Positions 12,632-55,995 of a stretch of DNA of 64,000 nt are shown piece after piece (within the stretch, counting starts at the first letter, position 1; each line of letters starts with the position of its first letter). Where the stretch lies: contig JBBPEB010000028.1 in NCBI GenBank assembly GCA_039096225.1, positions 248,001 through 312,000 on the forward strand, in the 5' to 3' direction. Under the pieces are notes generated by a model. The model saw only the letters and a program-made list of their open reading frames with translations. It was not told where the DNA came from and ran no database searches. Position numbers and translations under genes: made by a program. Source of the DNA: Blastocystis sp. Blastoise. Lineage: Eukaryota; Sar; Bigyra; Opalinata; Blastocystidae.

Positions 12632-12640
12632 AACTACTGG
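12632..12640 (+). repeat. Left target-site duplication of the 43-kb element
   Basis: AACTACTGG lies directly before the terminal inverted repeat that begins GAGAACTCGACC. The identical 9-mer directly follows the other end at 55,987. A 9-bp duplication is the usual MULE footprint. Confidence 0.93.
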
Positions 12641-13926
12641 GAGAACTCGACCTGCCACGTTCATTTTCTAAAAGTTGCCGTTACGTAGTTCAAAAGTGAT
12701 GTTCGTCATACGCACCAAGTTTGGTTCATCCAATTATTTTCTATATTTTATGATACAATCATTAAATACTTTTTTAATAAAAAATATATAATAAATATTA
12801 AAATATAAATTTTTATGATATATAACCTATAGTTGATTTTTAAATATTTAAAAAATACATTTTATGACTTTCTTTAAATACTCTATATAGTTGTTTTTTT
12901 ATATTTTCATTAAAACTATAAAATTAGCATTAAACTGAAGCATTATTATATAAATAATTGTAAGCATGACTTGATAGAAACATAAAAGCGTTTTATAGCA
13001 ATTATATTGCAAAAATACTAACTATTTAACTACTTTCATTATAATGCACTGTAATTCCGTTATTTATTTATATTTTCGAGCTATTTTTGAGTACATAAAT
13101 GTATAGCGTTTAATACATAGTAATTTGTTATAAGTCAACAATTATTTAAAGAAATGAAAGAGTAATGTACACATTTATATTAATAACAGAGATTCAACTT
13201 GAAACTGATATCCTGTATTATTCATCACTATTTATAGTTTATGAATGAATTACAAAAGAAAAAACGAATGTTACAATTAATTAATTGTTAATGCATTGAA
13301 GTATAATTATATTTTATAACAGAATCAAAGAAATAAACACTTTAAATAAATAAATAAATTATATATATGTTTTAAAATAAGATATTAAAGATAATATTTA
13401 GAATTTTTATTTAAAGTATAGATTCAATGATTAAATGATTTAAAACTGATAATAATGGTATTCTAAGTGATATACAGCTAGAAATAATAAGATATATTTA
13501 GAATGAATGGAATGAATACTCTTAAAGTATTATAAAACAATTCTAAAGATATCCTATTGCAATCTAGATGATCATAGAAACGCATGATTATAAAATTATG
13601 CTTTTAATATAATATTAAGATTATAAAATTAAGATGTGTTGATTTTTTGTCTAATAAATTATTATATCAATTACCTAACACTTCAAAAGTATGCAGAAGG
13701 ATCATTAGCATCCTTAATTAATCCAGAATTGAGTAAATGAAAATATAAGCTAATGCAATTGTAATGTTGTGTCTACTTCATTTTGATAAAATATTAATAT
13801 CACTTTTAAGTAGATAGCCTATAGATATAACTCATGAGTGAATATCAACGTATAATATTGAAATATGACTGAAATAATACAAATTCTAACAAAGAAAAAA
13901 AAATCTTAAAAAATCTTTAAAAAAAT

Positions 13927-13992
13927 ACTTAAGTCAGGATTTGAACCTGAAGATTGTCTAGAATGACCCTCTCTTGCCATTCAAGCTTAAGT
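13927..13992 (-). ncRNA. tRNA-like locus in TIR1-L
   Basis: Identical copy of the locus at 54,635-54,700 in the other repeat arm; see that entry for the structure. The T run that would end a Pol III transcript lies at 13,919-13,925 on this strand's template. Confidence 0.5.
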
Positions 13993-14952
13993 AAAGGTGA
14001 TATACTGCATAAATATATATATTATTTAAAATAACAACAATAAATATTACATTCCCAATTGCCATTCTTAGACTTTACATACATATGTCTTTAATGTTAA
14101 AGCCAAATAATAATTCATATTACATAGAATAAAATTGGGTATCTATATGATTCTATAATCAGGTTATCATAATAATATTATTAATAATAAATATATATAT
14201 ATATATACTTATTTTAAAACCATTCTCACATTTATTATCTTTTATTTTATCAATAACTATATAATAATATATATATTATTTCTATTATTATTACAATCAT
14301 CTAAAAACTCTATTTCTAAATATTTTGGGCTTACATTTAAAAACAAATAGATAATCAGTATCATATAATCTATATATGTATAATAATAATAATATAATGA
14401 TGATACTAATAATAATAAATATACTAAATTATTATATATGTTAACATTAATCAGATTTAATAGCAATAAATATAATAATTTTTTGATGAATAATAATAAT
14501 AATAATTTGGTTAATGTAATACTATAACTATGTATCGTTCTGTATATGTATTCAATAATAATTGTTGTAAAGGGTTTCGATGAGTACTTTTAGATAAGAA
14601 GATCGAAGGAGTAGATATATACTATATATATATATATATATAAACTTTCAATTATTATAGGTAATTATAATATATATATACAGTAACATTAGCAAAATGT
14701 TCGATATAATTTATGCATAAATTGTTCATCAAGTTAAAAAAAAATATTTCTCCGAAAAATAACCATCATTTATATATAATGTATTATTACTATTTCATAT
14801 TCTATATATAATAGTATAAATAATTAAAATGATTCAAAAAAGAATACACTTATCTATCATACAACATTAAATAAATAAACATATATAAAGAAGATAAATA
14901 ATAATAATATATAATAATCTATATAATAATTTATATATATATATACATATAC

Positions 14953-53200: not shown

Positions 53201-53837
53201 ATATATATATATTAATGATAATTTATTTCTGTTATCTTGAAAGACAACTAGTTCAAATTATATATTATATTTTTATTCATTAATATTTTCATTATAAAAG
53301 AACTATTAATACTATATATATATAGTTATCAATAGGTATTGGATATATTGGTTTATCATTAATTGATAAAACGCCAGAAGAATTATTATATGTATATTTC
53401 TATAATATTCTTGGGAATTATATATATTCAAAACAACAACATAATTACTCATTGTCTATTGATTCTTTACAAGTATATATATATATATATAATTATTAAA
53501 TAGATTGATGTTCAAACACCGACTCCCTTGTTCCCATCGATGGTTTATATTAATAGAAAGAGTATTCAGTCTATTTCAGAAGGTAAAAATGATTCTGAAA
53601 TGTATCGAATGATTAATCGCAAATGTGAATGTTCAGGATGTGGAATAGAATTCAAACAAAATGTACCATTTTACGTATATGTATATATATATATAAATTA
53701 TTATATAGATTATTATATATTATTATTATTTATCTTCTTTATATATGTTTATTTATTTAATGTTGTATGATAGATAAGTGTATTCTTTTTTGAATCATTT
53801 TAATTATTTATACTATTATATATAGAATATGAAATAG
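47235..53837 (+). CDS. VPS13-family protein, VAB/adaptor-binding region with embedded PH-like segment
   Basis: Cargo gene fragment of roughly a thousand codons in about 15 exons, with no stop seen inside the main exons. VPS13 proteins move lipids at membrane contacts. Opening exon (47,235): [20 protein letters not shown]. Then [20 protein letters not shown] with IRP and W, as in VAB repeats; [37 protein letters not shown]. An Asn/Ser-rich insert is at 48,985-49,350. Later: PH-like [20 protein letters not shown] with [17 protein letters not shown]; and [20 protein letters not shown], a VPS13 hallmark. The N-terminal lipid channel is absent, and the 3' end is truncated in the terminal repeat (stop at about 53,837). 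It may start at the Met at 47,347. Confidence 0.75.
52826..53040 (+). repeat. TTTA tetranucleotide tract in a VPS13-like intron
   Basis: About 50 TTTA units with occasional CTTA/ATTA, between a GGCATATAT/GTATAT-type donor near 52,767 and the TTATAG acceptor near 53,070. Its Leu-Phe-Ile-Tyr reading is an intron artefact. Confidence 0.9.
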
Positions 53838-55986
53838 TAATAATACATTATATATAAATGATGGTTATTTTTCGGAGAAATATTTTTTTTTAACTTGATG
53901 AACAATTTATGCATAAATTATATCGAACATTTTGCTAATGTTACTGTATATATATATTATAATTACCTATAATAATTGAAAGTTTATATATATATATATA
54001 TATAGTATATATCTACTCCTTCGATCTTCTTATCTAAAAGTACTCATCGAAACCCTTTACAACAATTATTATTGAATACATATACAGAACGATACATAGT
54101 TATAGTATTACATTAACCAAATTATTATTATTATTATTCATCAAAAAATTATTATATTTATTGCTATTAAATCTGATTAATGTTAACATATATAATAATT
54201 TAGTATATTTATTATTATTAGTATCATCATTATATTATTATTATTATACATATATAGATTATATGATACTGATTATCTATTTGTTTTTAAATGTAAGCCC
54301 AAAATATTTAGAAATAGAGTTTTTAGATGATTGTAATAATAATAGAAATAATATATATATTATTATATAGTTATTGATAAAATAAAAGATAATAAATGTG
54401 AGAATGGTTTTAAAATAAGTATATATATATATATATTTATTATTAATAATATTATTATGATAACCTGATTATAGAATCATATAGATACCCAATTTTATTC
54501 TATGTAATATGAATTATTATTTGGCTTTAACATTAAAGACATATGTATGTAAAGTCTAAGAATGGCAATTGGGAATGTAATATTTATTGTTGTTATTTTA
54601 AATAATATATATATTTATGCAGTATATCACCTTTACTTAAGCTTGAATGGCAAGAGAGGGTCATTCTAGACAATCTTCAGGTTCAAATCCTGACTTAAGT
54701 ATTTTTTTAAAGATTTTTTAAGATTTTTTTTTCTTTGTTAGAATTTGTATTATTTCAGTCATATTTCAATATTATACGTTGATATTCACTCATGAGTTAT
54801 ATCTATAGGCTATCTACTTAAAAGTGATATTAATATTTTATCAAAATGAAGTAGACACAACATTGCAATTGCATTAGCTTATATTTTCATTTACTCAATT
54901 CTGGATTAATTAAGGATGCTAATGATCCTTCTGCATACTTTTGAAGTGTTAGGTAATTGATATAATAATTTATTAGACAAAAAATCAACACATCTTAATT
55001 TTATAATCTTAATATTATATTAAAAGCATAATTTTATAATCATGCGTTTCTATGATCATCTAGATTGCAATAGGATATCTTTAGAATTGTTTTATAATAC
55101 TTTAAGAGTATTCATTCCATTCATTCTAAATATATCTTATTATTTCTAGCTGTATATCACTTAGAATACCATTATTATCAGTTTTAAATCATTTAATCAT
55201 TGAATCTATACTTTAAATAAAAATTCTAAATATTATCTTTAATATCTTATTTTAAAACATATATATAATTTATTTATTTATTTAAAGTGTTTATTTCTTT
55301 GATTCTGTTATAAAATATAATTATACTTCAATGCATTAACAATTAATTAATTGTAACATTCGTTTTTTCTTTTGTAATTCATTCATAAACTATAAATAGT
55401 GATGAATAATACAGGATATCAGTTTCAAGTTGAATCTCTGTTATTAATATAAATGTGTACATTACTCTTTCATTTCTTTAAATAATTGTTGACTTATAAC
55501 AAATTACTATGTATTAAACGCTATACATTTATGTACTCAAAAATAGCTCGAAAATATAAATAAATAACGGAATTACAGTGCATTATAATGAAAGTAGTTA
55601 AATAGTTAGTATTTTTGCAATATAATTGCTATAAAACGCTTTTATGTTTCTATCAAGTCATGCTTACAATTATTTATATAATAATGCTTCAGTTTAATGC
55701 TAATTTTATAGTTTTAATGAAAATATAAAAAAACAACTATATAGAGTATTTAAAGAAAGTCATAAAATGTATTTTTTAAATATTTAAAAATCAACTATAG
55801 GTTATATATCATAAAAATTTATATTTTAATATTTATTATATATTTTTTATTAAAAAAGTATTTAATGATTGTATCATAAAATATAGAAAATAATTGGATG
55901 AACCAAACTTGGTGCGTATGACGAACATCACTTTTGAACTACGTAACGGCAACTTTTAGAAAATGAACGTGGCAGGTCGAGTTCTC
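53474..55986 (-). repeat. Right terminal inverted repeat (TIR1-R)
   Basis: Mirror of 12,641-15,153. It begins in the TA-rich intron before the last VPS13 exon (53,504-53,674), carries the tRNA-like locus at 54,635-54,700, and ends GGTCGAGTTCTC just before the target duplication. No net length difference from the other arm. Confidence 0.95.
54635..54700 (+). ncRNA. tRNA-like locus in TIR1-R
   Basis: Acceptor ACTTAAG with CTTAAGT (7 bp); D-like arm CTTG-AATGG-CAAG; an 8-position arm AGAGGGTC/GACAATCT with two central mismatches and loop ATTCTA; T-arm TCAGG-TTCAAAT-CCTGA. GGTTCAAATCC fits the Pol III box B, and AAGCTTGAATGG resembles a box A. A T7 run starts two bases after the 3' end, a good Pol III terminator. 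There are no linker bases 8-9, no variable loop and no clear anticodon, so it is a tRNA-like RNA or SINE head rather than a working tRNA. Confidence 0.55.
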
Positions 55987-55995
55987 AACTACTGG
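55987..55995 (+). repeat. Right target-site duplication of the 43-kb element
   Basis: AACTACTGG, identical to 12,632-12,640. Confidence 0.93.

Follow-up and report, generated by a model that had tools for sequence, protein, structure and literature searches.

Mutator-like elements (MULEs) have been surveyed widely among eukaryotes, where they show target duplications of 8-11 bp and terminal inverted repeats (TIRs) of 14-500 bp; the meaning of very long, variable TIRs was named in that survey as an open question (PMC6446971). Coding TIR-MULEs produce a 9-bp duplication (PMC9569675). In maize and rice, more than 95% of the coding MULEs are 2-10 kb long after removal of nested insertions, which were found in 36% and 41% of them, respectively, and the TIRs of TIR-MULEs measure 100-500 bp (PMC3903597). 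Arthropod MULEs were described with lengths of up to 9972 bp and TIRs of up to 1193 bp (PMC13359780), and the MULEs of Trichomonas are the subject of another study (PMC2725143). A transposase acting in trans moves Pack-MULEs, and the first set to be described contained none above 7 kb (PMC6431247). Ulp1 is known from the Kaonashi/KIU MULEs of Arabidopsis and from MULEs of melon, rice, and grapevine, KIU elements being non-TIR, VANDAL-type MULEs (PMC13317346). It was also found in hydra and lancelet Mutators and in Ginger1 transposases, and a role in transposition was suggested (PMC2836005). These statements follow the sections of the cited papers that were consulted. The subject of the present analysis is a MULE in Blastocystis sp. 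Blastoise, which lies between the genes for RPC8/RPC25 and NOP9 in a stretch of 64,000 nucleotides (the window; C5:248001-312000 of a 33.3 Mb assembly with 34 contigs, C1-C34). Coordinates without a contig label are window positions, and the GC content of the window is 0.16-0.29 in 2-kb windows.

The element spans positions 12641-55986, a total of 43,346 bp. Like the coding autonomous TIR-MULEs MuDR, Jittery, and TED, it has a MULE transposase, long TIRs, a 9-bp target duplication, and an insertion site near a gene. Unlike coding TIR-MULEs, it has TIRs of 2513 bp and a length of 27.1 kb even when a nested insertion is subtracted. The interval is read as a single insertion of a MULE from a two-gene family, which grew stepwise, whose arms were converted, and which received the nested insertion. 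A probability of roughly 0.86 is given to this reading.

Boundaries and target site duplication

The first-pass annotation of this stretch had reported near-identical 2,513-bp inverted repeats 38 kb apart and a perfect 9-bp target duplication, which it attributed to a MULE, and these claims stood. In a letter-by-letter comparison the sole difference between the arms is a T/C at position 13762 (1/2513), the 100% identity given by the repeat finder being a rounding, and 38,320 bp separate the two arms. The 9-mer AACTACTGG occurs exactly twice in the window, each time abutting a tip externally, in direct orientation and without a mismatch. Between random point pairs outside the element, a direct 9-bp match was found in 1506 of 2,000,000 trials on window DNA (about 7.5e-4). 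The tips themselves read GAGAACTCGACCTGCCACG at 12641 (+) and 55986 (-), and 100 shuffles yielded none. A search of the assembly for the tips, which had been suggested as a check, returned a single further match to GAGAACTCGACCTGCCACG at up to 3 mismatches (C4:421932); this match resembles coding sequence by eye and was dismissed as chance.

Two relatives elsewhere in the genome could be delimited in the same way. One member on C2 (178978-195659; 16,682 bp) is bordered by perfect 9-bp direct repeats of AAAAAATTC, and one on C4 (61689-78055; 16,367 bp) by perfect 9-bp direct repeats of TCAAATGTG, with the C4 tips lying 0 and 2 bp off the positions predicted from the match coordinates together with the tips of the C2 member. 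These duplications strengthen the reading as a MULE insertion. At all three loci where both tips were read, the target duplication is thus 9 bp long and perfect, which falls within the 8-11 bp known for MULEs. Moreover, the tips are alike: they read GAGAACTCGACC in the C5 element, GAGATTATGACC in the C2 and C4 members, and GAGCATTCGACG at a single end at C5:170.9 kb, and the tips of the window element and of the C2 member have GAGA, GACCT, and GTTGCCGTTA in common. An inner-tip pattern allowing up to 3 mismatches detected only three ends assembly-wide, namely both window tips and the one at C5:170.9 kb; it misses the tips of the C2 and C4 members, which are more diverged. At the C5:170.9-kb end (C5:170670-~170922) the likeness to the TIR, judged by eye in the alignment, runs outward to the tip GAG and no further, which agrees with the boundary called for the element.

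The arms of the C2 member are identical at 523/523 tip-side positions and at 400/400 positions 2.97-3.37 kb from the tip, the stretch between the compared parts being covered only by paired matches at a constant offset. TIRs in this family therefore probably range from 2.5 kb to more than 3.3 kb. It was considered whether the TIRs are purely captured host DNA, and this was ruled out: the C2 arms are also kilobase-long and carry a transfer RNA (tRNA)-like motif at a similar depth. The motif lies 1311 bp from the tip in the window element and 1227 bp from it in the C2 member, and CTGACTTAAG comes next in both. Presumably it is B-box-like, and it may represent a short interspersed element (SINE)-like insert or an internal promoter. 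No RNA gene was detected in the window, either by ARAGORN at normal settings, which reported no tRNA including at this motif, or by Rfam at the gathering threshold.

Large inverted duplications are also present elsewhere in the assembly, on C15 and C16, so inverted arms alone prove nothing. It could accordingly be asked whether the MULE gene has come to lie by chance within a misassembly or an inverted segmental duplication. Exact 9-bp duplications at three out of three family loci with tips read, together with their alike tips, make such an origin highly improbable.

A transposase and a Ulp1 gene shared by the family

A MULE transposase and a protease domain had both been predicted inside the element, and both were identified. 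The transposase gene contains three GT-AG introns, with splice sites picked by eye, and yields an uninterrupted, intact-looking frame of 604 amino acids. It passes the curated Pfam cut-offs of two families, MULE (PF10551; 7.8e-8, 33.1 bits with a cut-off of 27.6) and Transposase_mut (PF00872; 1.2e-6, 28.2 bits with a cut-off of 21). Candidates for the D, D, and E residues are found in IDATH, HSDG, and NNPTEQ, and were picked by eye only. The third intron (44413-44827) is a minisatellite with 12-27-bp units, which matches many arrays genome-wide.

The protease belongs to the Ulp1 type. Its gene has six short GT-AG introns, with splice sites again picked by eye, and encodes the stretches NHW and QQHNSFDCG, which are taken here to be the catalytic residues. 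It lies 17.1 kb from the transposase gene, a distance that falls to 865 bp without the nested element. For the region that holds it (21387-26963), one other place was listed at E 1e-20 among the best 40 of 210 candidates, a match of 206 bp and 76% on C34.

Searches of the organism's own genome with each of the two proteins revealed seven transposase loci and seven Ulp1 loci. In six of the seven transposase loci (window, C2, C4:70 kb, C4:575 kb, C33, and C26) a Ulp1 match was found downstream on the same strand, at distances of 2.1, 2.2, 2.3, 5.3, and 30.4 kb at the five loci outside the window. Since at six loci a MULE transposase is accompanied by Ulp1 as a gene of its own, the sequence data argue that Ulp1 would be a working part of this family and not a chance capture. 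In having Ulp1 encoded together with a MULE transposase, here and at five other loci, the family is similar to the Ulp1-bearing KIU/VANDAL elements. Unlike these non-TIR elements, it has 2.5-kb TIRs in the window and alike arms in the C2 member, and Ulp1 forms its own gene downstream of the transposase, within a long-TIR element from an AT-rich eukaryote.

Nested elements and the size of the MULE

A 16-kb passenger had been proposed in the first-pass annotation. The sequence is present, but it is a nested insertion from a separate multi-copy family and not cargo of the MULE. Its arms of about 4.2 kb are 90.4% alike with gaps counted. All of the matches listed for window 20691-31200, at least 37, fall within 26837-31200; this is a lower bound, taken from the best 26 of 733 candidates, the window's own copy not among them. 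Most of the listed copies of the nested arm have no partner arm among the matches listed. The tip of the nested element is short and rich in palindromes (ACAAGCGTTTCACGACTGGCTACGCCAGCCTACGCTTG; 26970-27010 and 43120-43160). A possible 7-bp duplication, ATAATAT, was noticed by eye in its flanks and was rejected as too AT-rich to trust. Two open reading frames (ORFs) of the nested element, 38100-38591 and 35282-35818, gave no Pfam match above cut-off.

Without the nested element the MULE proper comprises 27,143 bp, and its excess over the relatives of 16.5 kb consists mostly of host gene fragments (an ATM/ATR-type kinase, an M1 aminopeptidase, and VPS13). The suggestion that it is among the largest elements of its class has to be corrected accordingly: the figure of 43 kb includes 16,203 bp of nested sequence, but even the corrected 27.1 kb is exceptional when compared with the 2-10 kb of more than 95% of the coding MULEs in the consulted sections of the maize and rice study (PMC3903597).

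It could be further proposed that the full 43.3 kb moved into the RPC8-NOP9 gap in a single transposition that already carried the nested element; this would then be a giant MULE in the strict sense. The nested element does lie between the tips and disrupts neither gene, and the arms differ at only 1 of 2513 positions. At C26:977325-1011289, moreover, transposase and Ulp1 matches lie 30.4 kb apart around a copy of the nested arm family (89%), and this locus is possibly a second giant element. However, the left arm and half of the core of the nested element match copies at C29:1279634-1283868 and C7:61675-65594 with an identity that the tool rounds to 100%, so that the nested insertion may have taken place after that of the MULE. 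The likeness of the arms gives no date for the insertion, because inverted arms convert and are thereby kept alike, and dating by arm identity was therefore rejected. Transposition of the whole 43.3 kb as a unit is regarded as possible but rather unlikely.

Captured host gene fragments

The VPS13-family gene and the decayed host-type genes that had been noted inside the element were found, as captured pieces rather than as cargo with demonstrated function, since the genes from which these fragments derive are present at other places in the genome. All mismatch rates given for them leave gaps out. The identity of the PIKK fragment was deduced from an ORF neighbouring its other copy on C29 (L050:494-1093; HEAT_ATR 6.3e-9, Tel1 1.2e-7). 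In the M1 aminopeptidase gene on C17, GAMEN and HELAH were recognised by eye among the exons, and the captured fragment starts just beyond the HELAH codons. Matches to the VPS13-like fragment from C16, C34, and C3 (in pieces) all start at window position 47328, and the open frames on C16 continue upstream. These three copies are located at C16:1-8600 (the contig start), C34:904-911 kb, and C3:409-422 kb; the C34 and C16 copies differ by about 1.5-2.3% mismatches, and the three are probably a recent segmental duplication.

Sequence from downstream of the VPS13-like gene was found at two further places, 20602-21386 and the inner end of the TIR (53474-54112). Within the TIR, the piece 53474-54009 has 8.8% mismatches to C34 (7.1% outside low complexity), and the part out to 54112 has 10-11%; compared with C16 and C3, the values are 4.9-6.2%, from joined alignments that include less diverged sequence. 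In the comparison with C34, mismatches rise abruptly at the inner edge of the TIR, from 1.7% to 8.8%. This rise would be explained if conversion between the arms had carried an older piece as far as their likeness extends. Moreover, because the captured pieces differ from other genomic copies by 1-20%, stepwise accretion is suggested.

In joining several host gene fragments between MULE TIRs (PIKK, M1, and VPS13, each with other genomic copies), the element is similar to Pack-MULEs. Unlike Pack-MULEs, it encodes its own intact-looking transposase and is far larger.

Further genomic analysis revealed a second copy of the left end on C1. The stretch C1:322032-329926 matches window 12754-20691 at 94.8% and holds pieces of PIKK and M1 arranged as in the window, with its TIR counterpart at 322032-324379. 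It looks like a tip-truncated copy of the element's left end, because the likeness of the C5:170.9-kb end (TIR positions 18-239) spans the C1 break point. A native host locus of the cargo was considered as the alternative for C1 and rejected: no upstream M1 exons were seen there, and the two genes whose pieces are joined at C1 are situated separately, one on C17 and the other on C29. Mismatches to C1 amount to 1.45% in the TIR and 3.2% in the cargo, whereas the window arms differ mutually by 0.04%; after the C1 copy split off, therefore, the arms either were homogenised or were passed on in an already alike state. At C1:313787-315521, ORFs resemble a piggyBac-type transposase by eye.

The copy on C1 also bears on the possibility that the RPC8-NOP9 gap first received an element of the size typical for the family, about 16.5 kb, and that the captured pieces and the nested element all came later, in place. 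The C2 and C4 relatives are indeed of that size (16.7 and 16.4 kb), and the least diverged VPS13 piece is only 1.3-2.9% from other copies. The TIR-PIKK-M1 arrangement is, however, also present at C1, so the older captures were already part of a multi-copy unit unless C1 is an unrelated duplication of this end. Growth entirely in place is accordingly judged improbable.

Proposed history of the element

In the general mechanism of MULEs, the transposase would bind the tips, cut, and insert the element through a 9-bp staggered cut. The element would have copied host pieces in steps, from a VPS13-like gene, an M1 aminopeptidase gene, a PIKK gene, and a VPS13-like gene again, most simply by repair synthesis with the host genes as template. 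Conversion between the arms would then have made both identical, and the present inner TIR edge would be the junction of the more diverged VPS13-derived piece with the less diverged VPS13 sequence. Finally, the interval between the protease and transposase genes would have received a 16.2-kb element that belongs to a different family and has in turn been invaded by a third.

Several observations weigh against this history. An inverted duplication at C15:393001-413000 has arms of at least 5.5 kb that are 99.6% identical, and no MULE transposase was seen there. The SWIM finger of the transposase is under the cut-off (E 0.013), and the pairing of the two genes is incomplete, one of seven transposase loci (C4:1739 kb) being without a Ulp1 match and one of seven Ulp1 loci (C23:185 kb) standing alone. 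The mismatch classes cannot serve as a strict clock: conversion may occur among host gene copies, and the three VPS13 copies are about as distant from each other as they are from the element. In addition, the outer 113 bp of the TIR are absent at C1.

Flanking genes and other features

The coordinates of the features are collected in Table 1. The first open frame of RPC8 ends 78 bp short of the target duplication. On the other side, the segment 56887-57201 has no Pfam match and was assigned to NOP9 by eye.

The C15 arms mentioned above are about 8.8 kb apart and reach the edge of the stretch examined; a DENR ORF was confirmed by Pfam in one arm, and the same ORF occurs in the other. The long inverted repeat on C16 (1496001-1510000) has arms of at least 5.6 kb that are 97.4% identical. 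It encloses ORFs that resemble a hAT-type transposase by eye, and Pfam found nothing in the two of its ORFs that were tried.

Table 1. Features of the MULE and its surroundings in the window, in order of position.
Feature	Position	Strand	Details
RPC8/RPC25, RNA polymerase III subunit (left neighbour)	12050..12553	-	SHS2_Rpb7-N 3e-17; RNA_pol_Rbc25 2.5e-5, 0.1 bit under cut-off
Left target site duplication copy, AACTACTGG	12632..12640	+	Direct repeat of 55987-55995
Left TIR, 2513 bp	12641..15153	+	2512/2513 identical to the reverse complement of 53474-55986
Tip-proximal part in common with diverged MULE end C5:170670-~170922	12641..12880	+	BLAST 77%, TIR positions 18-239
tRNA-like motif within TIR	13931..13951	-	Counterpart C2:194432-194452
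Captured PIKK (ATM/ATR/Tel1-like) fragment	15666..18258	-	Other copy C29:659208-662103; 3.3-3.8% mismatches
Captured M1 aminopeptidase fragment	18233..20642	-	Peptidase_M1 5.8e-11; gene C17:638727-641319; 7.5-12% mismatches
Most diverged captured piece, from downstream of VPS13-like gene	20602..21386	-	15-20% mismatches to C16/C34/C3
Ulp1-type (C48) cysteine protease gene	25161..26348	-	Peptidase_C48 3.7e-8, above cut-off; downstream of transposase, same strand
Nested long-inverted-repeat element, 16,203 bp	26964..43166		Between protease and transposase genes; arms 26964-31197 and 38914-43166
Core repeat within nested element, separate family	31560..38131		98-100% copies C7, C31, C5:686-693 kb (best 10 of 1813 candidates)
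MULE transposase gene, 604 aa	43417..45846	-	Exons 45846-45591, 45546-45499, 45371-44835, 44390-43417
Captured VPS13-like fragment, least diverged capture	47328..53473	+	VPS13_VAB 2.4e-8; 1.3-2.9% mismatches to C16, C34, C3
Right TIR, 2513 bp	53474..55986	-	Inner end 53474-54112 is the more diverged VPS13-derived piece
Right target site duplication copy, AACTACTGG	55987..55995	+	Direct repeat of 12632-12640
NOP9 (right neighbour)	56887..59254	-	PUF_NOP9 1.2e-29 for 58433-59254

Implications for MULE growth

The first-pass annotation had likened the element to the giant cargo-bearing elements of fungi, built on a different enzyme. Like Starships and Polintons/Mavericks, the element reaches tens of kilobases and holds several genes. 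Unlike them, its enzyme is a MULE transposase, its host genes are fragmentary, and much of its length is a nested insertion. Starships use a different recombinase, the captain tyrosine recombinase. The recombinase of Polintons/Mavericks also differs from the MULE transposase (PMC6431247). No protein-primed PolB, packaging ATPase, or capsid gene was found among the window proteins scanned with Pfam, which were sets of 10, 9, and 5 covering part of the ORFs. In the consulted sections of the open-licence literature, no MULE of such size is described. Compared with these sections, what is new is the combination of the element's length, TIRs that are very long and homogenised, Ulp1 as a separate gene across the family, and a layered record of captures.

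A more far-reaching and tentative proposal, for which the odds are considered to be low, is that the element represents a class of autonomous MULEs of giant size, which would transpose tens of kilobases in one piece and in which conversion-kept arms and captured pieces would anchor further uptake. The length moved would be 43 kb here and, provided that the transposase and Ulp1 at C26 are parts of one element, at least about 34 kb there. If this were true, captures borne by the arms or adjacent to them would be homology anchors for ever longer stretches of the same gene.

A single genome thus holds three members with clean 9-bp duplications, of 16.4, 16.7, and 43.3 kb, with captures at several levels of divergence. 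This range of sizes and the capture record within one genome make the growth of the transposon and the role of arm conversion testable by comparison of strains. The element shows how MULE-type transposons can grow.

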